63,396 nt of DNA from Candidatus Binatia bacterium (GTDB taxonomy: Bacteria; Desulfobacterota; Binatia; UBA9968; JAJDTQ01), in contig JAJEAI010000186.1 in the NCBI GenBank assembly GCA_022824205.1, positions 1-63,396 on the forward strand, written 5' to 3'. This document shows, one piece after another, positions 11,954 to 62,116 of this stretch. The notes under the pieces are model-generated. The model ran no database searches. It was not told the origin of the DNA and was given only the letters and a program-made list of their open reading frames with translations. The position numbers were made by a program, and so were the translations under genes. How positions within the stretch are numbered: the first letter of the stretch is position 1; each line of letters starts with the position of its first letter.

Positions 11954-13105
11954 ATGGGTACCGTTCCAGCCATGGAAGACATCGAAAACGCCGCTCAAGT
12001 CCTGTCCCTGGACGCCAAGTGGCTCCAGGAGTTCGACGTCGTCGATCCCTTCAACGACGTGGCCCTGCGCGGCTTCCTCTCGCGCAGGCCGGATCGCCGC
12101 TACGGGGCGCTCGCGGTCACGCACGTGAACGAGGCGCCTGCGCCGCAGGTGGTCTACGCCACTCCCAAGCTGCACTACCCCTTCGACCGCCAGGGCAAGT
12201 TCAACTTTCCGCCGGTGCGGGAGATCGAGATCTTCGAAAAGTATGACGGCACCAACGTGCTCGCCTACGGCTATCACGACTCGGACGGACGCCGTTACCT
12301 CACCTACAAGCTGCGCCTGTCTCCCGTCCTGCGGAACGGCCGTTTCGGCGACTTCCTCGACCTCTGGCGGGAGATGCTGGCGCGCTATCCGGTCATTCCC
12401 GAGCTGGTGGACGTCAACGGCTGCTCTCTGAGCTTCGAGCTCTACGGCGGCCGAAACATGCATCTCATCCTCTACGAGAAGCCGCTGGACTGTGTGCTGC
12501 TCTTCGGCGTCACCGAGGATGGAACGCCCCGGTCGCCTTCGGTGCTGGACAGCCGGGGCGTGCCGACGGCGACGCTCTACGGCACGCTGGCGGGGGGCAA
12601 CGACCCGGTGGCGGAGTACGGCGCGATCCGCGAACGGCTGGAGCGCGGCAACCGCTCGGTGGAGGACGGCAGGATTGCCGGGGTGGAGGGTGCCGTGTGG
12701 TACGTGCGCACGCGGGACAACGCCACCGTGCTGTTCAAGTGCAAGCCCGAGTCCGTGGAGGAGGTGCACTGGGTCGGCGGCATCAACAAGACCGCGGTCA
12801 TCGCCACCTGCTGGAACCTGTTCGAGACCCAGGACGTGCTGACCTACGAGACCCTCTATCCGCTCCTGGCGGAGGAGTACGCGGACGACGAGATCGACGC
12901 CTTCAGGACCTGCATCGACGAGTGCATCGCCGCGGTGCGCGAGGAGATGGAGTTCAAGAGCCGCGTACTGGACGAATACCGGCAGGTGGGCATCAAGTTG
13001 TCCGAGGACAAGGGCGAGGTGATGCGCCGCCTTTCGGCCCGGTTCAAGAGGCAGGCAATGAAGAAGGTCTTCACCTTGATCGCGCTGGAGGAAGGGCGCC
13101 GTTAG
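11954..13105 (+). CDS. ATP-dependent RNA ligase-like nucleotidyltransferase
   Basis: A 383-residue protein with the covalent nucleotidyltransferase motifs of RNA/DNA ligases and capping enzymes: motif I EKYDGTN with nucleophile Lys96, motif III SFELYGG (about 160-166), motif IV VEGAVW with Glu245, and motif V FKCKPE with Lys262/Lys264. There is no DNA-ligase OB domain; the C-terminal ~110 residues are helical, as in RNA ligases of the Rnl3/Pab1020 type or T4 Rnl1. Known members seal RNA nicks or circularise RNA. The gene stands alone between a repeat and ubiD, with no RtcB, kinase or toxin beside it. An alternative start (MEDIENAAQ) is at 11972. RNA rather than DNA as substrate is inferred. 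Confidence 0.75.
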   Translation: MGTVPAMEDIENAAQVLSLDAKWLQEFDVVDPFNDVALRGFLSRRPDRRYGALAVTHVNEAPAPQVVYATPKLHYPFDRQGKFNFPPVREIEIFEKYDGTNVLAYGYHDSDGRRYLTYKLRLSPVLRNGRFGDFLDLWREMLARYPVIPELVDVNGCSLSFELYGGRNMHLILYEKPLDCVLLFGVTEDGTPRSPSVLDSRGVPTATLYGTLAGGNDPVAEYGAIRERLERGNRSVEDGRIAGVEGAVWYVRTRDNATVLFKCKPESVEEVHWVGGINKTAVIATCWNLFETQDVLTYETLYPLLAEEYADDEIDAFRTCIDECIAAVREEMEFKSRVLDEYRQVGIKLSEDKGEVMRRLSARFKRQAMKKVFTLIALEEGRR

Positions 13106-14981: not shown

Positions 14982-15115
14982 CGGATCGCCCTCATTCCCG
15001 TGGAGCCGCGGCACGGCATCTTGCACCACGACGCTCCGCGGCAAGGACGACGACACGCCCGTTGATTCATGGGCGGGCCGGCAGGGTTGAACCTCGGACG
15101 GGAAGGAATGGCCTT

Positions 15116-17077
15116 ATGATGACGAGATGGGCGTTTCTCATCGGTTCGCGCCACCGCCGCGGACGGCCGTGGGCGCCCGCGGCACGGGTGCTCGCGGGCC
15201 TGATGATCGCGGCGGGTTTGTTCCACCCCGGGTCCGCCGCCGCGCTGCCGCTCCCCGCCAACGACAGCGGCGTCACCGGGTACTTCGACACCACCGTCTC
15301 CATCGGAGCGGCCATGCGGGTGTCCGGACGCGATGAACTCCTGTTCAGTCGGGCCAGCGGCGGCAATGCGTACACCTTCAATAGCGACGACGGCAACCTC
15401 AACTACGACCGCGGCGACCTCGTTTCCCTCAACACCAAGGTGAACCACGAGTTGCAGCTCAACCTGGAGAATCCGGGCGCGGAGCTGAGCCTGTTCGGGC
15501 GGGTGCTGTACTTCTACGACCAGGTGGTCGCCGACGGAGACACCGAGCGCACGGCCCTGCCCGCCGCCGCCAAGCGGCACGCCGGACGCGACTTCCAGTT
15601 GCTGGACGCCTACGTGGCCGGCGACTTCGACGCCGGCGCCGTGCCGGTCTCGGTCCGATTGGGCAACCAGGTGATGAGCTGGGGCGAGAGCGTCTTCCTG
15701 CGCGGCGGCATCAACTCCATCAACCCGGCCGACATTGCCAAACTCCGGGTCGCCGGCGCAGAGTTGCGTGACGTGCTCGTGCCGGTCCCCGCGGCCAACG
15801 TCAAGATGGGCCTCGGCGACAGCTTCTCCCTGGAAGGCTTCTACCAGTTCCGTTGGAACCACACCGAAGTCGAAGCGCAAGGCACGTTTTTCTCCACCAG
15901 CGACATCGTGGGGCCCGGGGCGGACACCGTCCATCTCGGGCTCGGCCGTGGAAAGACCGAAAATAGTCCGGCAAAAGGGGATGACAGGGACGGCGCACGC
16001 GACCCGGCGTGCGCTCCCGGCGCCACCAGCCTGGGGCTCTGCTCGCGCGTGCCCCGGGCCCCCGACCGTGATGCCGGCGATCAGGGACAGTTCGGCGTGG
16101 CCCTGCGCTACTTCGCGGCAGCCTTGAACGATGCCGAGCTTGGACTCTATTACGCGCGAATTCATAGCCGTCTGCCGCTGGTGTCCCTTCACGCGGGCAA
16201 CCCGGCGAGTCTCAGGTGTGATCCCCGTGATATCAACTGTACCGGCTTTGCCGGCTCCATCCGGTATTTCCGAGAGTTCCCCGAGGGCATCGACCTCATG
16301 GGGTTGAGCTTCAACGGCGAACTCGGCGCCAGCGGTTTCACGATACAGGGCGAGGTCGCCTATCGCCGGAAACAGCCGCTCCAGATCGACAACGCGGAAC
16401 TCGTCTTTTCCGCGATGAGTCCACTTGGGCGACTCGGCCCGCCGCCCCCGACCGTACAAGGAGCCGCACGACTACTGTGGCAGAGGCGAGCTCAGACGGG
16501 GGTATGGCTCAGGGACAGCCAGACCGGCGAAGCGAGAGCGGGCGATGAGGTTCGGGGCTTCAAACGCAAGGACGTCGTGCAGGGAACTCTCGCGGTGTCC
16601 AGGGCGTTGGCCCCCATGCTCGGAGCCGACGGATGGGTCGTGCTGGCGGAGGCCGGCTTCACCCAGGTCCGGGGCATGGAGGACAAGTCGGAGCTTCGTT
16701 ACGATGGAACGGGCACCTGGACCAGCGGTAATCCGATCTTCACGGCCCGCGGAATCCAGCCGGTGACCCAGGAGACCGGCTTCGCCGATCCGTTCTCGTG
16801 GGGCTACCGGGCCGTGCTGCGGGGTGCCTACAGCAATGCCCTGGGGCCGGTGAACCTGGCGCCGCAGGTCGCCTTCGCCCAAGACGTCAACGGCACCGCG
16901 CCGAGGCCCATCGGCAACTTCGTGGAGGGGCGCAAGACGGTGACCCTGTCGGTTGAGGCGAGCTACCTCTTGTCGTGGCAGGCGCAACTCGCCTACACGA
17001 ACTTTTTCGGCGCCGGCCAGCACAATCTACTAGGGGATCGCGACTTCGTATCGTTCACGGTGAGCTATTCCTTTTGA
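15116..17077 (+). CDS. DUF1302 family outer-membrane protein
   Basis: A 653-residue DUF1302 protein with an N-terminal signal peptide (Arg-rich start, hydrophobic core VLAGLMIAAGLF, AAALP cleavage region). It begins GYFDTTVSIGAAMRVSG, has many alternating beta segments and ends in an aromatic SYSF, as outer-membrane beta-barrels do. GNQVMSWGESVFLRGGINSI is a characteristic family motif. The ATG at 15116 follows GGAAGGA at 8 bp. It is followed 19 bp later by a DUF1329 gene, the usual pairing. In pseudomonads such pairs accompany lipid or hydrophobic-substrate pathways; the function is not established. Confidence 0.9.
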   Translation: MMTRWAFLIGSRHRRGRPWAPAARVLAGLMIAAGLFHPGSAAALPLPANDSGVTGYFDTTVSIGAAMRVSGRDELLFSRASGGNAYTFNSDDGNLNYDRGDLVSLNTKVNHELQLNLENPGAELSLFGRVLYFYDQVVADGDTERTALPAAAKRHAGRDFQLLDAYVAGDFDAGAVPVSVRLGNQVMSWGESVFLRGGINSINPADIAKLRVAGAELRDVLVPVPAANVKMGLGDSFSLEGFYQFRWNHTEVEAQGTFFSTSDIVGPGADTVHLGLGRGKTENSPAKGDDRDGARDPACAPGATSLGLCSRVPRAPDRDAGDQGQFGVALRYFAAALNDAELGLYYARIHSRLPLVSLHAGNPASLRCDPRDINCTGFAGSIRYFREFPEGIDLMGLSFNGELGASGFTIQGEVAYRRKQPLQIDNAELVFSAMSPLGRLGPPPPTVQGAARLLWQRRAQTGVWLRDSQTGEARAGDEVRGFKRKDVVQGTLAVSRALAPMLGADGWVVLAEAGFTQVRGMEDKSELRYDGTGTWTSGNPIFTARGIQPVTQETGFADPFSWGYRAVLRGAYSNALGPVNLAPQVAFAQDVNGTAPRPIGNFVEGRKTVTLSVEASYLLSWQAQLAYTNFFGAGQHNLLGDRDFVSFTVSYSF

Positions 17078-17096
17078 CGGACGGGATCTGGATGAC

Positions 17097-18461
17097 ATGA
17101 TTGCGCGACAGACCATTGCGGCGACCGTGTTGGCATGGGCGGTCTTGGCGGCGGCGCCGGCGGCGGCCAAGGTGACGGCCGACGAGGCTGCCCGGCTGGG
17201 GGCGGAGTTGACGCCCCTGGGCGCGGAAAAGGCGGGCAACGAGTCCGGTACCATCCCTGCCTGGGAGGGCGGCATCACGAAACCGCCGCCCGGCTATCGG
17301 CGCGGAAAGCGCCTGGTGGATCCGTTCCCGGACGACAAGGCGCTCTTCACCATCACCGCGGACAATTTCAGACAGTACGAGGCGAACCTCACGCCCGGTC
17401 AGATCGCGGTGCTGCGGCGCTATCCCGAAACCTACCGGATGCCCGTGTACCCGACGCGGCGCACGGCGTCGGTGCCGCCGCGTATCTACGAGCGCACCAT
17501 TGCCAACGCCACGACCGCGATGCTTACCGGTGACGGCAACGGGGTGGTGAACGCCGCCGAGGGCATCCCGTTCCCGATTCCCAAGAACGGGCTCGAGGCC
17601 ATCTGGAACCACCTGCTGCGCTACCGCGGCAAGTCCGTGCGCGTCACCAGCGGCCAGGCCGCGCCCACGGCCGACGGCGCCTACGTCATGGTGCAGATCC
17701 GCGAGCAGGTGCTGTGGGGTTACCAGCAGCCCGGGGCCACCACGGAGAACATCGACAACAAGCTCGCCTACTTCCTCCAGGAAGTGCTGTCCCCGGCGCG
17801 GTTGGCGGGCGCGCTGGTCCTGGTCCACGAGACCCTGAACCAGGCGGCGGAGCCGCGCAAGGCGTGGGTCTACAATCCCGGCCAGCGTCGCGTCCGCCGC
17901 GCGGCCAACATCGGTTATGACAATCCCGGCACGGGCTCCGACGGCCAGCGCACCAACGACCAGGCCGACATGTACAACGGCGCGCCGGACCGCTACGACT
18001 GGACGCTGGTGGGGAAGCGGGAGATCTACATCCCGTACAACAGCTACAAGCTCGCGAGCGACCGCTACCGCTTCGACGACGTCCTGAAGCCGGGCCACAT
18101 CAACCCCGACCTGACCCGCTACGAGCTGCACCGGGTCTGGGTGGTGGAGGCGCGTCTGAAGGCTGGCACCCGGCACATCTTTCCCCGGCGCACGTTCTAT
18201 CTCGACGAGGACAGTTGGCAGATCGCGGTGGTGGACCAGTACGATGCCCGCGGCGAGATGTGGCGGGTCAGTCAGGCCTACATCGTCAACCATTACCAGG
18301 TGCCGGTGCTGTGGAGCACCGGCATGTCGATATACGACCTCCAGAACGGGCGCTATCTGGTCAAGGGGCTGACCAACGAATACGAGCCGGGGCGTTTCGA
18401 CATCGAGATGAACCCGGGCCAGTTCACGCCGCGGGCGTTGCGGCGCCGGGGCCGGCGTTGA
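17097..18461 (+). CDS. DUF1329 family exported protein
   Basis: A 454-residue DUF1329 protein with a clear signal peptide (TIAATVLAWAVLAAAPAAAK). The mature part begins with the conserved AARLGAELTPLGAEKAGN and carries IPAWEGGI, GNGVVNAAEGIPFPIPKNG and a C-terminal GRFDIEMNPGQFTPRALRRR. DUF1329 has an LolB/LolA-like beta fold and acts in the periplasm or at the inner face of the outer membrane (family knowledge). It is operonic with the DUF1302 protein upstream. A REP-type inverted repeat separates it from the convergent permease gene. Confidence 0.9.
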   Translation: MIARQTIAATVLAWAVLAAAPAAAKVTADEAARLGAELTPLGAEKAGNESGTIPAWEGGITKPPPGYRRGKRLVDPFPDDKALFTITADNFRQYEANLTPGQIAVLRRYPETYRMPVYPTRRTASVPPRIYERTIANATTAMLTGDGNGVVNAAEGIPFPIPKNGLEAIWNHLLRYRGKSVRVTSGQAAPTADGAYVMVQIREQVLWGYQQPGATTENIDNKLAYFLQEVLSPARLAGALVLVHETLNQAAEPRKAWVYNPGQRRVRRAANIGYDNPGTGSDGQRTNDQADMYNGAPDRYDWTLVGKREIYIPYNSYKLASDRYRFDDVLKPGHINPDLTRYELHRVWVVEARLKAGTRHIFPRRTFYLDEDSWQIAVVDQYDARGEMWRVSQAYIVNHYQVPVLWSTGMSIYDLQNGRYLVKGLTNEYEPGRFDIEMNPGQFTPRALRRRGRR

Positions 18462-18487
18462 CTGTGCGGTCATTCCCGACCCTCCAA

Positions 18488-18590
18488 TACGTCATTCCCG
18501 CGAAAGCGGGAATCCAGGCGGGGCGGGGCTTGGGGCAATGGAGCCGCCGCAACACCACCTCTGGATTCCCGCTTTCGCGGGAATGACGTA
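18488..18590. repeat. REP/dRS3-like inverted repeat pair
   Basis: Two oppositely oriented copies of GTCATTCCCGCGAAAGCGGG (18491-18510 and its complement at 18570-18588), each followed by an AATCCAG-type arm, 100 bp end to end. Each unit is itself a hairpin (cccgc-gaaa-gcggg type). It lies between two convergent genes, where it can act as a bidirectional transcription stop. Related copies: 23763, 28973, 62083 and 63350. Confidence 0.9.
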
Positions 18591-18630
18591 TTCGTAAGGT
18601 TTCCGATAACCCTGCTCCGCCGCTTGAACC

Positions 18631-19788
18631 TCATTGCCGCACCCCGTGCGGGTCGAGCGCGTCCCTGAGACCGTCGCCGATATAGTTGAACGCCATCACC
18701 GTGATGAAGATCAGGACGCCGGGGATGAGCACCCACGGGTGGAACCGGATCTGCGCGATGTCCATGGCCAGGGCCAGCATGTTGCCCCAGGATGCCTCCG
18801 GATCCTGGATGCCCAGACCGATGAGGCTCAGCCCGGATTCCCCCAGGATGTAACCGGGGATGGACATGGTGGCGGCGACGATGGCGTACGAGAACGTGTT
18901 GGGGAGGACGTGGCGGACGATGATGCGCGCGTGGGGAAGGCCCATGGCCCGCGCGCTCGTGACGTAGTCCATTTCCTTGATGGACAGCACGAGGCCGCGG
19001 ATGATCCGCGCAAGGCTGGCCCAACCGATGAAGCTCAGGATGACCACGATGGCCAGGTAGGTCTGGAACGACGTCCAGTCCGCGGGAATCGCCGCGCGCA
19101 GGGCCAGCAGCAGATAGAAGCCCGGCACCATCATCAGCATTTCGCACAGCCTTTGAATCAGCATGTCCGTGCGGCCGCCGAAATAGCCGGAGGCGCCGCC
19201 GATGAGCATTCCCAGGACGAACGTGATGGCCACTCCCACCAGTCCCACGGACAGGGAGACGCGGCCGCCGTGCAGCAGGCGGGAAAGGACGTCGCGGCCG
19301 AAATTGTCCGAGCCGAGCAGGAACAGCATGGGCCGGTTGGGGTCGGTGTGAGGAATGTCCTCCACGCCGCGCAGGCCGAACAGGTGGGTTCGTGTCTCCA
19401 TCAGCCCGAGGAAGCGGTAGGGGTCTCCGGTGACGAAGATTCCGATGGGGTAGGCCGTGCCCGGCACTTCGCGGTAGACCTTGCGCTGGTTCTCGTTGAA
19501 CTCGAAGGCGCTGTTGCGCACGTACGGCCACGTCAGGCCGTTCTCGTCGAAGACGTGGATCCAGGTGATCATGGGCGGATGATAGGCCTTCTTGCGGGCG
19601 CTGGCGGCATAGTGATGGGGTGAGAGGAAGTCCGCGAACAGGGCCGTGCCGTAGAGAAACACGAGGATCCAGAATCCCAGCATGGCCAGGCGGTTGCGCC
19701 TCAGACGGGACAGGGTGCGGCGGACCGGAGAGCGGGAGCCGGGTGCGCCGCGCTGTTGGCGGAGCGCGTTGTCGGGTTCGGGCGGCAT
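18631..19788 (-). CDS. Opp/Dpp-type ABC transporter permease (OppC-like)
   Basis: A 385-residue inner-membrane permease of the oligopeptide/dipeptide ABC family. After the first membrane helix (LAMLGFWILVFLYGTALFA) there is an extended extracytoplasmic loop (about residues 55-155, including FLGLMETRTHLFG and FLLGSDNFGRD). BPD_transp_1 helices follow, with the EAA-type loop ARAMGLPHARIIVRHVLPN. This loop is longer than in E. coli OppC but such OppC variants are known. The ATG at 19788 overlaps no gene; the upstream permease stop is 5 bp away. No OppD/OppF ATPase gene is adjacent. Confidence 0.9.
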   Translation of the reverse strand: MPPEPDNALRQQRGAPGSRSPVRRTLSRLRRNRLAMLGFWILVFLYGTALFADFLSPHHYAASARKKAYHPPMITWIHVFDENGLTWPYVRNSAFEFNENQRKVYREVPGTAYPIGIFVTGDPYRFLGLMETRTHLFGLRGVEDIPHTDPNRPMLFLLGSDNFGRDVLSRLLHGGRVSLSVGLVGVAITFVLGMLIGGASGYFGGRTDMLIQRLCEMLMMVPGFYLLLALRAAIPADWTSFQTYLAIVVILSFIGWASLARIIRGLVLSIKEMDYVTSARAMGLPHARIIVRHVLPNTFSYAIVAATMSIPGYILGESGLSLIGLGIQDPEASWGNMLALAMDIAQIRFHPWVLIPGVLIFITVMAFNYIGDGLRDALDPHGVRQ

Positions 19789-19793
19789 GGACG

Positions 19794-21662
19794 CTACCGG
19801 TAGCTGATGCGTGGATCGACCCAAGCCAGCAGGATGTCGGCAAGGAGATTGCCGATGATCAGCAGGAATCCCCCCGCCAGCGAGCTGGCCATGACCACGT
19901 AGATGTCGTAGGAGCGTACGGCGGTCAGCATCAGTTGCCCGATGCCGGGGTAGCCGAAAACGATCTCCACCAGGGCCGAACCGCCGATGAGGGTGGGCAG
20001 AAGGGAGCCGAAGCCCGCCACGAACGGGGTCACGGCGTTTCTCAGGATATGCTTGTAGTTCACCATGGTATCGGACAGGCCCTTGGCTCGCGCCGTGACG
20101 ACGAACTGCATGTGGCTCTTGTCCAGGAACTCCGCCCGCAGCACCCGCACCAGCGCCGCCATGGCGCCGGTTCCCAGCACCAGCACCGGCAGGACCAGGT
20201 GGCGCGCCAGGTCCGTCATGCGGCCCCACGTGCCGAGGTCATGGTAGTTCGCGGACGTGAGCCCTCCGATGGGGAGCAATTCGTAGAACGGGTTGGCGGG
20301 GTCGAGGTCATAGGTCAGGGATGCGCCGTAGAGCAGCAACAGCGCCAGGAAGAACGAGGGGACGGCCATGCCCATGTAGGCCATGAAGCCGAAGGCCTTG
20401 TCGCTCCAGGAGTAGGGATGGGTGGCGGAGTAGATGCCGATGGGCAGCGACAGCAGCCAGGTGAAGAGAATGGCCAGCACGTTCAACAGGATGGTGTTCT
20501 TGAGGAAGGGCCACATGGTGGTCCAGACGGGCTGGCGGTTGGCGATGGACTTGCCGAAGTCCGGCGCGCCGACGTGGAAACCGCTGCCGGCCTTCTCGAG
20601 CCGGATCTCGTCGACGAAAAGCGACCCCGGGACATCGCCGCGGAACGAGATCGGCCCCATGCGCGTGGTGTCCAGACCGGCGGCGTGAAGTTCCGTGAAG
20701 TCCACCGAGAGGGACGTGGTGACGCCGGGGGGCAGGAGCACGTCCGTCGCGTAGCCGTTGGCGTCCAGGTCCCGGAACGTCACGGTCGCCGTCATGGGCG
20801 GCGCCGGGGACGGAATGATCCTGAAGCCGACGCCGTCACAGCGGCCGAGATCGCCGAACCCCGCCGGGATGGCATTGCGGACCAGGGGCAGGCGGCGCGC
20901 CGGGTCCAGCGCATGGCGCACGGCGGCCACGGCCGTGTCCCCCGTCCGGCAGGAGACCTCCAGCACCGCGGGGCGGCCGCCGTGCTGTCGCGCGAACAGG
21001 AACATCCCCCTGAGCCTGTTCCGGTCCACTCCGAACCGGGCGTAATCGGCGTCGGTCAGCGCGATGGCCGCGGGCTCGTCCGTATCGATGGAGCGGCGCT
21101 CCTGGAACGCTTTCCCGTTGCTGTCCTGGATGCGCAGGAAAACGTCCGCCCCGCCCACCCGGTCGTTGCGGAGTTCCAATTCGACGGACTGGAAGTCATC
21201 GCCGGACCAGTGATTGCCGGGCCGCCGGCTGGCCGTGTTGGGGTTGTCCGTCTTCCCCAGCACGCCGGTCTCTCCGGGCGCGTCGAAATTGAAGGCAAGG
21301 CCGAAGGTGCCGTCTTCGGGGAGCGGCACGAGGATGGGCGTGGCGCTGCCGGAGATTTCGTAGGCTCTCCGGTTGGCGGCCAGGTCGACGTATTCGAAGT
21401 CGGCGATGCGGACGCGCTCCCTCGCGAAACGAACGTCGAACAGCACGCCGCGGAGCCATCGCAGGTACTGGGTGCCCCAGCCCTTGTCCGCGCCGAACTC
21501 GCGTTTCCACTGGCGCAGTTGCCGCTGGTCGAGGTCCGGCTGCAAGGCCCACTGGTTGAAGTAGTCCCCGGGAGCGATCTGGATGATCATGAAGATCACG
21601 AAGGTCAGGGCGAAGAGTGACGGTATCGTGATCAGCAGCCGCCTTGCGATGTATGCGGTCAT
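19794..21662 (-). CDS. OppB-like ABC permease with large extracytoplasmic insertion domain
   Basis: At 622 residues this is about twice the usual OppB/DppB length. Residues 1-80 are a normal OppB start (RRLLITIPSLFALTFVIFMI helix, then YLRWLRGVLFDVRFA). From about 82 to 360 there is an inserted soluble, beta-rich domain (SVELELRNDRVGGADVFLRI ... SFRGDVPGSLFVDEIRLEKA), reminiscent of jelly-roll carbohydrate-binding modules. The standard permease resumes at about 365 (APDFGKSI, FLKNTILLNVLAILFTWL) with the EAA loop ARAKGLSDTMVNYKHILRNA. The insertion falls where the first periplasmic loop should be, so the domain faces the periplasm. Same operon as OppC (downstream) and a DppA-type binding protein (upstream). 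Confidence 0.85.
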   Translation of the reverse strand: MTAYIARRLLITIPSLFALTFVIFMIIQIAPGDYFNQWALQPDLDQRQLRQWKREFGADKGWGTQYLRWLRGVLFDVRFARERVRIADFEYVDLAANRRAYEISGSATPILVPLPEDGTFGLAFNFDAPGETGVLGKTDNPNTASRRPGNHWSGDDFQSVELELRNDRVGGADVFLRIQDSNGKAFQERRSIDTDEPAAIALTDADYARFGVDRNRLRGMFLFARQHGGRPAVLEVSCRTGDTAVAAVRHALDPARRLPLVRNAIPAGFGDLGRCDGVGFRIIPSPAPPMTATVTFRDLDANGYATDVLLPPGVTTSLSVDFTELHAAGLDTTRMGPISFRGDVPGSLFVDEIRLEKAGSGFHVGAPDFGKSIANRQPVWTTMWPFLKNTILLNVLAILFTWLLSLPIGIYSATHPYSWSDKAFGFMAYMGMAVPSFFLALLLLYGASLTYDLDPANPFYELLPIGGLTSANYHDLGTWGRMTDLARHLVLPVLVLGTGAMAALVRVLRAEFLDKSHMQFVVTARAKGLSDTMVNYKHILRNAVTPFVAGFGSLLPTLIGGSALVEIVFGYPGIGQLMLTAVRSYDIYVVMASSLAGGFLLIIGNLLADILLAWVDPRISYR

Positions 21663-23526: not shown

Positions 23527-24132
23527 GATCCTTGTCCTTTCAGGGCATGACCGAGCCGGAGCGTCCGGCTGTTTTTCTGGGATGCGCCACAACTTGTGAC
23601 TTTACCATCAATTTATTGTGCATTCATGCGAGGCAGGCGATGATTGGATTTCCCGCCGTTGGCTGCAGGGCTATTCAAAGTCACCTCTCCCTCGCGTCGT
23701 CATTGATATGAGAATAAAATCTTGTTCAATGAATTCAGCTAGTTACAGAAGCCCCCTACAACCCGAATCGTCATTCCCGCGAAAGCGGGAATCCAGGGGT
23801 CTTGGAGGGGCTCTCGACACGGCGTTTCCCCACTCCACCCCGCCTGGATTCCCGCTTCCGCGGGAATGACGATTCGGGAGCTGTTGCCTCTCTCGGATGG
23901 AGTTTTGACGCAGCCTGTTTCGCGGGAATGACGACGCGTGGGAAGGTGACTTTCAAGGACAGACCGACTTTTGAATGATGGTCCTGCAGTTGGTTGACGG
24001 TTCGTTGCCCGTCGGTTTACGTTGAACACGATGGCGCGCGGCCGTCGCAAGCGGGCGCGGATCGCGAAACGCAAGAACCTGCGAGCATCGAAACAAGGGA
24101 CGGCCACGGGGCTGTCCGTGGGGAACCGCACC
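23527..24132. repeat. Intergenic region with REP/dRS3-like repeats
   Basis: The divergent gap between the binding-protein gene and the third OCD gene. At 23763-23877 there is an inverted pair of the cattcccgc-gaaa-gcggg repeat with ccgaatcg outer arms. A third, degenerate half (ttcgcgggaatgacg) lies at 23919-23933. The segment 23595-23750 is clearly AT-rich and probably holds the minus-strand promoter, but I cannot assign hexamers with confidence. No coding frame. Confidence 0.8.
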
Positions 24133-26138: not shown

Positions 26139-27122
26139 ATGTTGCGCAAACTCATCGGATGGGCCCTGCTGTGTGCCGTCTTGTGGATGGCCGCGCCGGC
26201 CAGTGTTGCATTGGCGGCGGACAAGTACCCGAGCAGAACCATCACCTGGCTGATACCGTATGGTCCCGCCGGAGGGTTCGATCTTCACAGCCGGGCCATG
26301 ATCCTGGGAATGAAGAAGGCCCTCGGGGTCAACGTCATCATCCGCAACCGGCCGGGAGCGGGCGGCAACATTGCCTGGAACCTGACCTGGGCGGCCAAGC
26401 CCGACGGTTACACCATCTCGACCGTCAACATTCCGGGAGCCATCGTCTCCGAGTTGTTCGACAAGCCCAAGCCGCACTATCGGTTGAAGGAGTTCTCCTG
26501 GATCGGACAGATCTCCTCGGGCCCGTATGTGTGGGCCGTGGGCGCCAACACCCCGTTCAAGAGTCTGCAGGACCTGCAGGCGGCCGACGAGGTGCTGCTC
26601 ACCGGTGTAGGGGTCGGCGGCACGGCGTGGGTCACGGCGGCCCTGACCGCTTCGGTCCTGAAGTTCAAGCACCGGTTCGTTCTGGGCTATCCGAGCGCGC
26701 CTGCCGCCAACATGGGCATCGTGCGCGGAGAAGGGCACGCGCGGGGCCTGGGCCTGGATTCCCCGGGGCAGATGCAGTTTGTTCATGACGGCCACCTGCG
26801 GCCCCTGTGGGTGTACCTGGAAGAACGCTCGCCGGAGTTCCCCGACGTTCCGACCATCGGAGAGCTGGGGCATCCGGAGTTGACCGTGCTGGCTTCCCAC
26901 CGCGTGGTGACGGCTCCGCCGGGCATGCCCAAGGACCGGCTGGAGATCCTCCAGAAGGCGTTCAACGCGGCCACCAAGGACCCCGACGTCCTGGCGCGGT
27001 TCAAGCAGATGAAGGCCAAGATCGAGCCCGTGGTAGGTCAGGATTGGACGGACATGCTCAATGGCTTCTACGGCCTCATCGAGGACCACGGCGAAGTCTT
27101 CAAGAAGTCCTTGGGCAAGTAA
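26139..27122 (+). CDS. Orphan TctC/Bug-type tripartite tricarboxylate transporter binding protein
   Basis: A 327-residue periplasmic protein with a signal peptide (ALLCAVLWMAAPASVALAAD). The TctC fold is marked by YPSRTITWLIPYGPAGGFD at the mature start and NRPGAGGNIAWNLTWAAKPDG. AAGGAGG lies just before the ATG. No TctA or TctB gene is near; a cupin gene follows after 48 bp. Orphan Bug proteins are common and may use a shared permease or act as sensors. One of three TctC-family genes in this window. Confidence 0.9.
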   Translation: MLRKLIGWALLCAVLWMAAPASVALAADKYPSRTITWLIPYGPAGGFDLHSRAMILGMKKALGVNVIIRNRPGAGGNIAWNLTWAAKPDGYTISTVNIPGAIVSELFDKPKPHYRLKEFSWIGQISSGPYVWAVGANTPFKSLQDLQAADEVLLTGVGVGGTAWVTAALTASVLKFKHRFVLGYPSAPAANMGIVRGEGHARGLGLDSPGQMQFVHDGHLRPLWVYLEERSPEFPDVPTIGELGHPELTVLASHRVVTAPPGMPKDRLEILQKAFNAATKDPDVLARFKQMKAKIEPVVGQDWTDMLNGFYGLIEDHGEVFKKSLGK

Positions 27123-29328: not shown

Positions 29329-29406
29329 GTTCTTAAAACGTCGGTGTTGTCACTGTTTCCGCCGCCGGCTGGGCTCAAGGTGTTCCCTGGTAACGACGCC
29401 CGCGAC

Positions 29407-30711
29407 CTACGAGGCGATGTTCACGCGGTCCTGTACCGCCTCGACCCATACCGCGTCCCGGGGCAGCCGCACCGAGGTGGCGCGGACGTGGTGAAGCCGC
29501 GGGTCCAGGCCCGGCGGGTCCGCTTGCCCCTCCCGCAGCATCCTGGCCGAGTCGATGAGGCACTTGCGTACCTTGATGATGGCGGTGTCGCTGGTGCCAA
29601 GGCGCTCCAGGGTGCGGTCGAAGATGGGACCCTGGCTCTCGGTCATGGCACGGTCCTGCATGCCGAAACCGGGAATGCCGCAGAACATCCGCGTGCGGTG
29701 CGCCTCCCAGTCCATGCCGTAGTCGTCGTCCGGCGTTGCCGCGGGGCGGACGTCGCCGTAAGGCTCGTTGGTAGGCGGGCCGAACCGCGTGATGTGGGAA
29801 CTGAAGCCGTCGGCCAGGGACGCGAGTTCTTCTTCCCTCAACGGGCGCGTGGGATGCCACGTGATGGTCCAGTTGATGAGGTGCTCATCGTCCGCCGGCA
29901 CCCACGCGTGCGAGTGCAGGATCGGGTCCTCGTCCTGGGGCGGCGGCATGGTGTAGAAGGGCATGAGGAACTGCGTGATGCGCCAGTAGTAATGGTCGTC
30001 GGCGGCATTCCGCCGGGCGCCGATCATGACGCCGTAGTCCGTGTCCACCACCTCGAAGCGCGGGCTCCGGTCCGTGGTGCCCACCGCGGTGTCCACGCCG
30101 AAGCCGGCTTTCTCGAGGCTCTCCAGGGAACGGCGGTCCGTGGTGTCCAGCGGCGCGTGCAGGAACGAGATGTGGCTGGAATCGATGCCGCCTTCCAGTG
30201 CCTGGAAGTAGTTGTTGCTCTGGTAGTACTTGGAAATGAAGCGCTGGTTGTCCGCCAGCCCCAACCACTCGAAGTCCGGCAACTCGGTCATGTGTGCGGG
30301 ATCGCCCATGAACGCCCACACCACCCCGCCACGCTCGCGGCAGGGGTAGGCGGGATGCCGCACGGCATGCTTGAAGTCGGTCTCCGGCGACTCGTTGGGC
30401 ATCTCCAGACAGCGGCCGTCGAGGCCGTACTTCCAGCCGTGATAGCAGCAGCGCAACCCGTCCGGCTCGACGCGCCCGTAATAGAGCGACACGCGCCGGT
30501 GCGAGCACAACTCGCCCAGCAGGCCGGCCTCGCCCCGTGTCGTGCGGAACGCCACCATGCTCTCCCCCAGGATGCGCACCCTCTTGGTGCGCCCCCCGGC
30601 CTCCAGCTCGCTGGAAAGGACCACCGGCACCCAATAGCGCCGCATCAGCGCGCCCATGGGCGTGCCCGGGCCGACTTGTGTCAATGTGTCGTTGTCTTCT
30701 CTGGTCAGCAT
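29407..30711 (-). CDS. Rieske non-haem iron oxygenase, alpha subunit (copy 1)
   Basis: A 434-residue oxygenase of the phthalate 4,5-dioxygenase-like branch. The Rieske cluster ligands are Cys69-x-His71 and Cys88-x-x-His91 (GLRCCYHGWKY). The mononuclear iron site is seen in EGGIDSSHISFLH (D-x2-H-x4-H). Such enzymes hydroxylate or demethylate aromatic acids using electrons from a separate reductase; none is adjacent. Close in layout to copy 2 (33847-35028), with the same VGPGTP, ALMRRYW and ILGE stretches. Likely monocistronic. Confidence 0.9.
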   Translation of the reverse strand: MLTREDNDTLTQVGPGTPMGALMRRYWVPVVLSSELEAGGRTKRVRILGESMVAFRTTRGEAGLLGELCSHRRVSLYYGRVEPDGLRCCYHGWKYGLDGRCLEMPNESPETDFKHAVRHPAYPCRERGGVVWAFMGDPAHMTELPDFEWLGLADNQRFISKYYQSNNYFQALEGGIDSSHISFLHAPLDTTDRRSLESLEKAGFGVDTAVGTTDRSPRFEVVDTDYGVMIGARRNAADDHYYWRITQFLMPFYTMPPPQDEDPILHSHAWVPADDEHLINWTITWHPTRPLREEELASLADGFSSHITRFGPPTNEPYGDVRPAATPDDDYGMDWEAHRTRMFCGIPGFGMQDRAMTESQGPIFDRTLERLGTSDTAIIKVRKCLIDSARMLREGQADPPGLDPRLHHVRATSVRLPRDAVWVEAVQDRVNIAS

Positions 30712-30985
30712 GCGCGTCCTCGATCCCGGTGTGATGCTCTGAGCCTAAAGAACTACAATCGGCATTCCGTTTGTGTCAAGCATGGGCTAGAAACGCCCAA
30801 GGCTGAGGCTGGTCTGGTGAGAAAGTCGGTGCGCTGCCATCTTCTTGCCGCCGGGATCGTTGCGGGTGCCCACAGGCTGTGCTTCCGGCCTTTCCGCAGC
30901 ACTTGAAACTGACGCAGTACCGGCGAATCGAGCCGTTTGATTGGCCACAAAATCCCGTTATCATCCGTCGATGGATTGATGCGGA

Positions 30986-32119: not shown

Positions 32120-33730
32120 CTACGAACGCGAGTCTGCCGGCTCGTCCTTGACGAGGTCGATCTCCCAGGACAGGTAGCGTTCCATGTCCTCGCGGGACTT
32201 GCCCAAGGCGCCCCTCCACACGCTGTGGCCGAAGTCGGCTTGCGCGTCCTCGGTGGAGACGCCCGTGCCTTCCAGGCCGTCTTCCAGTGCGCGGCCGGCG
32301 CTCTCCCACGCTCGGGTGCCGCCTTCGATCACTTGCACCTCGGTGTATCCGAGTTGCCGCAGCGTCCCGGCGGCCAGGGTGGAGCGGATCGCGTTGTCGC
32401 ACACGATCACCAATGGGGCGTCCCTGTCCGGTGCCATGGCCTGGATGTCGAGTTCCAGGCGTCCGCGGGGAACCCAGCGGGTGCCGGGAACGTGGGCGAA
32501 TCCGTATTCGCCGATGCTGCGCACGTCGAGGGCGAGGCCGGACGCGTCCAGGTGCGCCTGGAGCCCGGCCGCATCCGTGAAGCGCGTAAGGGCGCGCGCT
32601 TCATGGAGTCCGAAGACGTCGGGTTCCGGCACGTCCTGCTCAAGGGGCAGACCGGCGTCACGCCACCGTCGCAGACCGCCGTCCACGACCGACACGTCGC
32701 GGAAACCGAGCTGTTGCAGCAGCGACGCCGCCCATACCGGCCGCAGGTCATCGTTGGAGATCAGAAATACGGGGGCGGCGCGCACGGCCAGGAAGTTCTC
32801 ATGGGCCAGGGCCATCTGTCCCAGCGGGAGCGAGATGGCACGCGGAACATGGCCGGCCTGGAACTCTTCCGGCAAGCGCACGTCCAGGAGGTAGAAAGCG
32901 TTGTCGGAGTCGTAGACGCCACGGAACGTCTCCAGCGGGCAGCGGCGCACGCCCTCCGCCGAGGCGAGGGCGTCCGTGGCCCGTTGGATACGCGCGGCGC
33001 GCGCTGCCGACACCGTCGCGGGTGTCTCCCGTCCCGGCCCCTCGGCGATGTCATGCCCGGACAGGAACCAGCCCATGACGCCGTTCTCCAGGGCATAGAC
33101 ATTGTCGAAGCCGTTGTCGTGCAGCAGCTTGGCGCCGAGGATGCCGCGGGTCCGGCCCGCGCAGCTTACCACCAGCGTGGTGCCGTCGTTGAGCGGCAGG
33201 CGCGGCGCGTCCACCAGCAGATTGCCGCCGGGGATGTGGTAGGTGTCGGGAACGTGGCCGCGCAGGTACTCCTCGCGCGAACGCACGTCCACCACCACCA
33301 GGTCCTCGCCGGCCGCGCGCCGGCGCGCCAGCTCCGGCGCGCTCATGTGGGTCACGGCGCCGCCGTGGGCCACCCGCTCGCCGTATTCCTTGCCGTGCAC
33401 GCCCCATCCCGAACGCACCGGCAGCCCCTGCCGCTGCCACGCCCCGACGCCGCCGGCCAACACCCGGACGTCGCCGTAGCCCATGCGTCCCAGGGTCTCC
33501 GCCGCCAGCGCGCTGCGGCGTCCGTCATCGCACAACACCACTACCGGAACGCGCGCGTCCGGCACCATCACGGGCAGCCGCAGCTCCAGCGTGCCCCGGT
33601 TGACCGGACTGGTCCCGGCGATCTGCGCGCGGGCGAACTCGCCGCGCTCGCGTACGTCGATGCAGGCGTAGGGCTCGTCCGAGGCGAGCAATGCCTGTAA
33701 GGCCGAGGGCTCGATGGTGGGATGGCTCAA
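32120..33730 (-). CDS. Four-domain rhodanese-like sulfurtransferase
   Basis: A 536-residue protein made of four consecutive rhodanese domains. Active-site loops: domain 1 VVLCDDGRRS, domain 2 VVSCAGRTRG, domain 3 FLISNDDLRP and domain 4 IVCDNAIRS. Domain 3 has Asn at the cysteine position, so it should be catalytically inactive. A TTG at 33730 is preferred because GGAGGAG lies 5 bp upstream; an ATG at 33766 would add 12 Arg-rich residues. Convergent with the YraQ-type gene and downstream of a Rieske oxygenase on the same strand. Known members move sulfane sulfur; the acceptor is unknown. Confidence 0.9.
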   Translation of the reverse strand: MSHPTIEPSALQALLASDEPYACIDVRERGEFARAQIAGTSPVNRGTLELRLPVMVPDARVPVVVLCDDGRRSALAAETLGRMGYGDVRVLAGGVGAWQRQGLPVRSGWGVHGKEYGERVAHGGAVTHMSAPELARRRAAGEDLVVVDVRSREEYLRGHVPDTYHIPGGNLLVDAPRLPLNDGTTLVVSCAGRTRGILGAKLLHDNGFDNVYALENGVMGWFLSGHDIAEGPGRETPATVSAARAARIQRATDALASAEGVRRCPLETFRGVYDSDNAFYLLDVRLPEEFQAGHVPRAISLPLGQMALAHENFLAVRAAPVFLISNDDLRPVWAASLLQQLGFRDVSVVDGGLRRWRDAGLPLEQDVPEPDVFGLHEARALTRFTDAAGLQAHLDASGLALDVRSIGEYGFAHVPGTRWVPRGRLELDIQAMAPDRDAPLVIVCDNAIRSTLAAGTLRQLGYTEVQVIEGGTRAWESAGRALEDGLEGTGVSTEDAQADFGHSVWRGALGKSREDMERYLSWEIDLVKDEPADSRS

Positions 33731-33846
33731 GGGTCTCCTCCGGTTGGCGTGCGTGCGGCGCGCCATGAATGGGACGGCTGCCGAGGTTCACGTCGTCATC
33801 TGAAACAATTCATCGTGGTGCGGATGGGAACCGGGGACGCGAGGGG

Positions 33847-37159: not shown

Positions 37160-37933
37160 GTGGCCTACGTACGGATCGACGAAGCTGTCAAGTTCTTTTC
37201 CCGCGAGGACGGCTCGCCGCTGAAGGTGTTGGACGGCATCTCCTTCGACACCAAGGAATACGGCATCACGGCGCTTCTGGGGCCGTCGGGCTGCGGCAAG
37301 TCGACGCTGTTGAACATCATCACCGGCCTTGAGCGCCTCGACCATGGGCGGGTGGACATCATTTCCAGCGACGAGGACGAAGAGCGGGCACACCCGCAGT
37401 TGGGCTACGTGTTCCAGGACCCGAGGCTGCTCAACTGGAAGCGGGTGGAGGACAACCTGAAGTTCGCCCTCAAGGGCATGGAGGTGCCGGCGGACGAGTG
37501 GGACGAGAGGCTGGACAAGTACCTGTCGCTGGTGGGCCTGACGGACTTCCGCAAGCAGTACCCTCTGTACCTGTCCGGCGGCATGCGGCAACGCGTGGGT
37601 CTGGCGCGCGGCCTCGTGATCGAGCCGCAAGTGCTGTTGATGGACGAGCCCTACAGCAAGCTCGACCAGCTCACGGCGCGGCAGTTGCGGGAGGACACGC
37701 TCCAGATTTGTTCCCGGCTCAAGCAGACCGCCTTGCTGGTGACCCACGACGTGGAGGAATCGTCCTACATGGGGGACCGGATCGTGATCTTTTCCGCCCG
37801 CCCGGCGCGTATCGCGGCGGTCTACGAGAACCCCCTGAAGTCATCGGAGCGGGATACCGACGACATGCGGTTCATCGAGTTCAAGAAGGAAGTGCTGGAA
37901 ACCATACTCAACCTGGTGAAGGAGGAAGCATGA
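37160..37933 (+). CDS. NitT/TauT-type ABC transporter ATP-binding protein
   Basis: A 257-residue ATPase subunit. Walker A is LLGPSGCGKSTLLN (about 42-55), the Q-loop is in GYVFQDPRLLNWK, the ABC signature is YLSGGMRQRVGLARGL and Walker B is VLLMDEPYSKLD, with His in LLVTHDVEES. The start is GTG directly after the permease stop, and the TGA overlaps the ATG of the binding-protein gene, so all three genes are translationally linked. It drives uptake in the inner membrane. Confidence 0.95.
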   Translation: MAYVRIDEAVKFFSREDGSPLKVLDGISFDTKEYGITALLGPSGCGKSTLLNIITGLERLDHGRVDIISSDEDEERAHPQLGYVFQDPRLLNWKRVEDNLKFALKGMEVPADEWDERLDKYLSLVGLTDFRKQYPLYLSGGMRQRVGLARGLVIEPQVLLMDEPYSKLDQLTARQLREDTLQICSRLKQTALLVTHDVEESSYMGDRIVIFSARPARIAAVYENPLKSSERDTDDMRFIEFKKEVLETILNLVKEEA

Positions 37934-62082: not shown

Positions 62083-62116
62083 GAATACGTCATTCCCGCG
62101 GAAGCGGGAATCCAGG
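62083..62116 (+). repeat. REP/dRS3-like repeat, single unit
   Basis: One unit with gtcattcccgcggaagcggg and an aatccagg arm. It differs from the 18488 copy by one base in the loop region. It lies 22 bp before the SnoaL-like gene and ends near its ribosome-binding site (GGGGGAGG). Confidence 0.85.

Follow-up and report, generated by a model that had tools for sequence, protein, structure and literature searches.

An OppB-like ABC importer permease of Binatia with a predicted 291-residue periplasmic domain inserted between TM1 and TM2

The oppABC locus and the anatomy of its permease

The stretch of DNA analysed here, referred to as the window, is contig JAJEAI010000186.1 of a Candidatus Binatia bacterium (63,396 nucleotides), which holds an operon of oppA-, oppB- and oppC-like genes (Table 1), a layout kept in all genomes found to carry the insertion described below. 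An earlier note on this DNA, made from the letters of the sequence, had given the correct coordinates for the oppB-like gene but no strand, and had recognized a separate DppA-type binding protein beside the permease, which the oppA-like gene bears out.

Table 1. Features of the oppABC locus (positions in the window).
Feature	Position	Strand	Evidence
oppB-like permease gene, product of 622 residues	19794..21662	minus	kept in seven genomes
OppB residues 1-75: TM1, scoop-motif region, short helix alpha-3	21438..21662	minus	PF19300; gap-free against DppB 2-74; TM1 by hydropathy
OppB residues 76-366: inserted domain, extracytoplasmic, beta-sandwich by prediction	20565..21437	minus	without family match
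OppB residues 367-622: TM2-TM6, EAA/coupling loop TARAKGL	19797..20564	minus	PF00528; DppB 77-337 alignment
gene for an oppA-like binding protein (SBP_bac_5); signal peptide of the soluble type, no lipobox; uncertain start codon	21718..23592	minus	PF00496, E 7.8e-89
oppC-like permease gene (OppC_N and BPD_transp_1), with the true start close to where oppB ends	18631..19794	minus	Pfam; synteny

Both ends of the permease are ordinary OppB, as had been read beforehand. First, residues 1-79 match BPD_transp_1_N (PF19300) with 30.4 bits against a cut-off of 23.8, and residues 406-620 match BPD_transp_1 (PF00528) with 125.5 bits against a cut-off of 26.4. Second, in the alignment with E. coli DppB (8z1v), residues 2-74 pair with DppB 2-74 without gaps, and a second, gapped block pairs residues 368-621 with DppB 77-337 (E 1.4e-38), including the TARAKGL motif. 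Since the two aligned blocks end and resume there, the insert was delimited as residues 76-366, that is, 291 residues, close to the limits of 80-365 proposed earlier. It maps to the first periplasmic loop, again as proposed, after the scoop motif and alpha-3 and ahead of TM2. None of the named OppB equivalogs of NCBIfam (Opp4B, NikB, DppB and others) is reached, the best being Opp4B with 243.8 bits against a cut-off of 450, a low score because the insert and sequence divergence reduce it. The insert has no hydrophobic stretch of membrane-spanning grade by hydropathy and, by homology, should be a soluble domain on the periplasmic side. We regard it as almost certain that the gene encodes an OppB/DppB-type permease of a type I ABC importer, with a 291-residue domain inserted in the periplasmic segment between TM1 and TM2.

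The operon has no ATPase genes, and a single ABC ATPase motif was detected in the window, at 37279 on the plus strand. Across the whole genome there are about 15 OppB loci and 14 matches to oligo_HPY, equivalent to about seven ATPase pairs, and therefore the ATPases are probably shared among its OppB systems. Some of the oligo_HPY matches are not beside any OppB (C133:19747-20944).

The surroundings of the operon have features of their own. Genes for DUF1302 and DUF1329 proteins lie side by side at 15062-18461, convergent with oppC, and most carriers have such a pair adjoining the operon. Both sides of oppABC hold REP-like palindromes consisting of CGTCATTCCCGCGAAAGCGGGAATCCAGG and its complement, with arms of 32-49 nt (18486-18592, 23762-23878 and 23918-23940), and similar motifs occur near 62100 and 63360. 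Two plus-strand genes, at 11954-13105 and 29344-30906, encode products of 383 and 520 residues that are 75-90% conserved in those carriers whose neighbourhood was read, with zero Pfam matches at E 1e-5. A 548-residue protein with four rhodanese-domain stretches is encoded at 32120-33766 on the minus strand, and a gene for a TctC/Bug-type receptor, present as one copy in the window (26139-27122), occurs three times in tandem in another carrier (G004, locus L022, 14054-18413).

Integrity, constraint and distribution of the insertion

In 46 insert-less OppBs from Binatia, most of them encoded in operons that share the A-B-C gene order, the positions matching residues 75 and 367 are adjacent, with a gap of 0 in all 46, and so the insertion is a clean one. 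Seven of the nine genomes of the genus, including that of the window, carry it at the same point, with a length of 290-291 residues in permeases of 621-622 residues, and the insert of the window is 71-86% identical to those of the other six. The two remaining genomes (99% and 76% complete) have no close match to oppA or oppB at all. An assembly fault, which the earlier note had named as a possible undoing of its proposal, is excluded by the presence of the same insert in seven separately assembled genomes, one of which is a single contig of 4.2 Mb, and with GC3 equal across the gene (0.90 in the insert, 0.89-0.91 in the flanks) the probability of any assembly or frame artefact is virtually nil.

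The dN/dS of the insert is 0.27, against about 0.08 in the two membrane parts, 0.15 in oppA and 0.13 in oppC. Hence the frame is translated across the insert and purifying selection acts on it, though less tightly than on the membrane parts, and the domain is less constrained than its neighbours, namely, the membrane parts, OppA and OppC. Its alignment across the seven genomes has many invariant residues, and zero frameshifts or losses.

Searches for the insert elsewhere gave the following results. First, a scan of a genome collection, done with two peptide patterns only, returned four loci, all from the same genus, in Candidatus Binatia or Deltaproteobacteria MAGs. Second, a profile search of the insert (148 genomes of the class; 391 relatives) matched only the seven carriers, and the other OppB copies of the window genome all lack it. 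Third, plasmid records yielded zero matches to the insert, and among 3548 plasmid records with an OppB match none covers 80% of the protein. Some other OppBs of Binatia have long open frames, of 452-670 residues, and these proved to be upstream frame extensions, with a loop gap of 0. As far as searched, the insert is restricted to the genus, where it is common to the permeases of seven of the nine genomes; this is the outcome of the sequence search that had been suggested together with the original proposal.

Phylogenetic analysis of the permease core groups the seven carriers in one clade with support of 100/100, which adjoins 30 insert-less OppBs of Binatia (100/99) on a stem of 1.42 changes per site. 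Since the carriers form a single clade, one gain of the insert would be the simplest history. Unsampled relatives outside the class could also carry it, and the long stem leaves the time and place of the gain wide.

No OppB with a comparable insertion, and no carbohydrate-binding module (CBM) fused to a permease, was found in the literature searched, and Pfam and NCBIfam give no described extension of this kind. This is in agreement with the earlier statement that no characterized Opp system is built this way. An OppB with such an insert is, in this sense, not previously described, and the kind of transporter itself is already known.

Fold of the inserted domain and the case for carbohydrate binding

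Modelled from its sequence alone, the full-length protein gave no usable structure (pLDDT 40). The model of the insert obtained with six relatives has a mean pLDDT of 58.6 and reaches 80-92 over insert residues about 101-210, which are predicted to form a beta-sandwich, flanked by outer parts of uncertain structure. This prediction, together with the lack of membrane-spanning stretches, fits the previous description of the insert as a beta-rich, soluble domain.

The same note went further, likening the insert to a CBM of the jelly-roll type and suggesting a two-step capture of an unusual, perhaps glycosylated or large, ligand; in such a scheme a glycan or glycopeptide would be kept close to the pore until OppA or the channel takes it over. 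In a Foldseek search with the insert model, confident in its middle only, the CBM22 tandem of Xyn10C ranked first, at E 0.012 and a probability of 0.21, and nothing scored at E below 0.001. The top of that list includes CBM6, CBM4, CBM11, CBM16 and CBM32 in addition to the CBM22 tandem, but viral coat proteins and Ig-type domains score alike. VIA-align gave a top Z of 7.5 (3rj2), a level that its own note calls common, and placed CBMs, the N-terminal domain of an exo-agarase and agarase-type domains at Z 5-6. MalF P2 is missing from the fold-match lists, an absence that excludes nothing. The predicted strand order suggested an internal duplication into two like modules, which was rejected after comparison of the halves by sequence and by HMM gave chance scores.

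Sequence-based searches for a carbohydrate-binding family gave one lead, Agarase_CBM in Pfam, which two of the seven members touch over about 42 residues (E 0.11 and 0.26), with a best score of 12.6 bits against a cut-off of 26.3. No family of Pfam or NCBIfam reaches its cut-off on the insert, the NCBIfam search being empty; a sequence search of the PDB with the insert gave nothing convincing; and Agarase_CBM exceeds its cut-off in none of 145 Binatia genomes. Among its 291 residues the insert also counts a single Trp and four Tyr, which would be few for a sugar-binding face.

The insert therefore has something in common with CBMs such as CBM22, CBM11 and Agarase_CBM, namely, a weak resemblance to their beta-sandwich fold, but differs from them in having no significant sequence match and few Trp and Tyr, and in not being attached to an enzyme. 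A jelly-roll fold is plausible on the model, and the matches do lean towards CBMs, yet they are weak (Foldseek E 0.012, Z of at most 7.5) and no family scores over its cut-off. With fold matches this weak and the sequence assigned to no family, capture of a carbohydrate stands as a lead rather than a finding, and we consider it unlikely. The fuller version, an Opp system with two receptors in which a capture module of the CBM kind, fixed on the permease, delivers its ligand (a glycan or glycoconjugate) to the pore or to OppA, is very unlikely. If the domain itself does bind a ligand, it would represent a design new to this class of transporters.

Candidate roles and comparison with known transporters

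In E. coli DppABCDF, the part of DppB that follows TM1 and precedes helix alpha-3 contains a scoop motif (residues 32-62) made up of two helices and a loop. This motif inserts into the DppA cleft and closes off the cavity, with E41 and R42 at its tip contacting DppA (PMC12136057). Inspection of the alignment revealed that the scoop-motif region is kept here at full length and ungapped, with Q41 and P42 at the tip, and that the insert lies between DppB positions 74 and 77, just after the intact scoop motif and alpha-3 and before TM2. Because the matching DppB segment extends into its binding protein when the latter is docked, we infer by homology that the inserted domain would stand next to bound OppA, on the periplasmic face and beside or under this protein.

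This position, together with the precedent of MalF P2, is what remains as a guide to function. It leads us to propose, tentatively and by analogy, that the insert may serve as a platform for docking or orienting OppA, raising encounter or selectivity, much as the Ig-like P2 loop of MalF does for MalE. Transport proper would run by the ordinary Opp cycle, with ATPases supplied from elsewhere in the genome, as the operon has none. A role in docking or steering OppA seems somewhat more likely than carbohydrate capture. Against it, the insert outpaces both OppA and OppC in evolution (dN/dS of 0.27 versus 0.15 and 0.13).

Two specific links with OppA were discarded. First, an electrostatic fit was rejected since both partners are mostly net negative: there is no charge complementarity, OppA being net negative in all six carriers scored and the insert negative in five of seven and positive in two. 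Second, OppA is a lipoprotein in 36 of 39 insert-less operons of Binatia (L058-L106) versus none of six carriers, where it has a plain signal peptide; an automatic lipoprotein flag at L019, due to a Cys in the middle of the core with no lipobox, was not counted. However, none of 11 binding proteins at insert-less OppB loci of the window genome (G000, L107-L119) is a lipoprotein either. Thus, non-lipidated OppA is a trait of the genome rather than tied to the insert, and the idea that the insert compensates for a lost lipid anchor was rejected on account of this control and because only one evolutionary event is available. The anchoring of binding proteins, therefore, differs by lineage, and some of those of the window genome have Tat-type signals.

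Alternatively, the insert might bind some other protein of the periplasm or outer membrane, or peptidoglycan, so siting the importer at its supply. A large soluble beta-sandwich predicted on the periplasmic face would suit such a role, and the DUF1302/DUF1329 pair, which is LolA-like and of putative outer-membrane type, adjoins the operon in several carriers. However, this pair was not found beside the operon in two of the carriers, G004 and G008, and it is therefore not an obligate partner; we give this explanation a small chance. Distinctly unlikely is that the domain is a tolerated ornament of the lineage, gained once, folded, hardly affecting transport and left to drift by weak constraint. 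Its restriction to the genus and a dN/dS that exceeds the value for the permease core by a factor of three to four speak for this explanation, but a near-invariant length (290-291 residues) with no frameshift or loss in seven genomes, many invariant residues and a dN/dS well below 1 speak against it.

Docking or steering of OppA remains the reading that we prefer. The first periplasmic segment of OppB/DppB has lately been shown to act as scoop and seal for the binding protein, and a natural and selected insertion of a whole domain at this very place offers a ready means of studying how peptide importers tune docking, selectivity and ligand handover.

Among known transporters, MalF P2 is a folded periplasmic loop, located between TM3 and TM4, that works with the maltose-binding protein, and it reportedly interacts with MalE (Daus 2009 and Grote 2009, both cited in PMC3328499). 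MalF and the permease of the window are both type I permeases that bear a large folded periplasmic domain and have a soluble binding protein beside them. However, MalF belongs to another permease family, and contact with the binding protein, a proposal for the window insert, has been shown for P2. Since the insert lies between TM1 and TM2 rather than between TM3 and TM4, the likeness would be an analogy of function only.

YejB and a mycoplasma OppB (PRK15133 and MMSYN1_0165 in NCBIfam) belong to the OppB family, and also have an extra-long N-terminal part before TM2, with about 114 and 163 model positions ahead of the matched core. However, these additions are far smaller, and nothing points to the same domain. 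Another close comparison is with E. coli DppB (8z1v; PMC12136057), which has the same transmembrane core, an EAA-type coupling loop and a scoop region of equal length, and whose operon likewise places a binding protein and a C-type permease gene alongside. The window operon differs from that of DppABCDF in having no ATPase genes, and its permease from DppB in the two residues at the scoop tip and in the 291-residue domain that follows.
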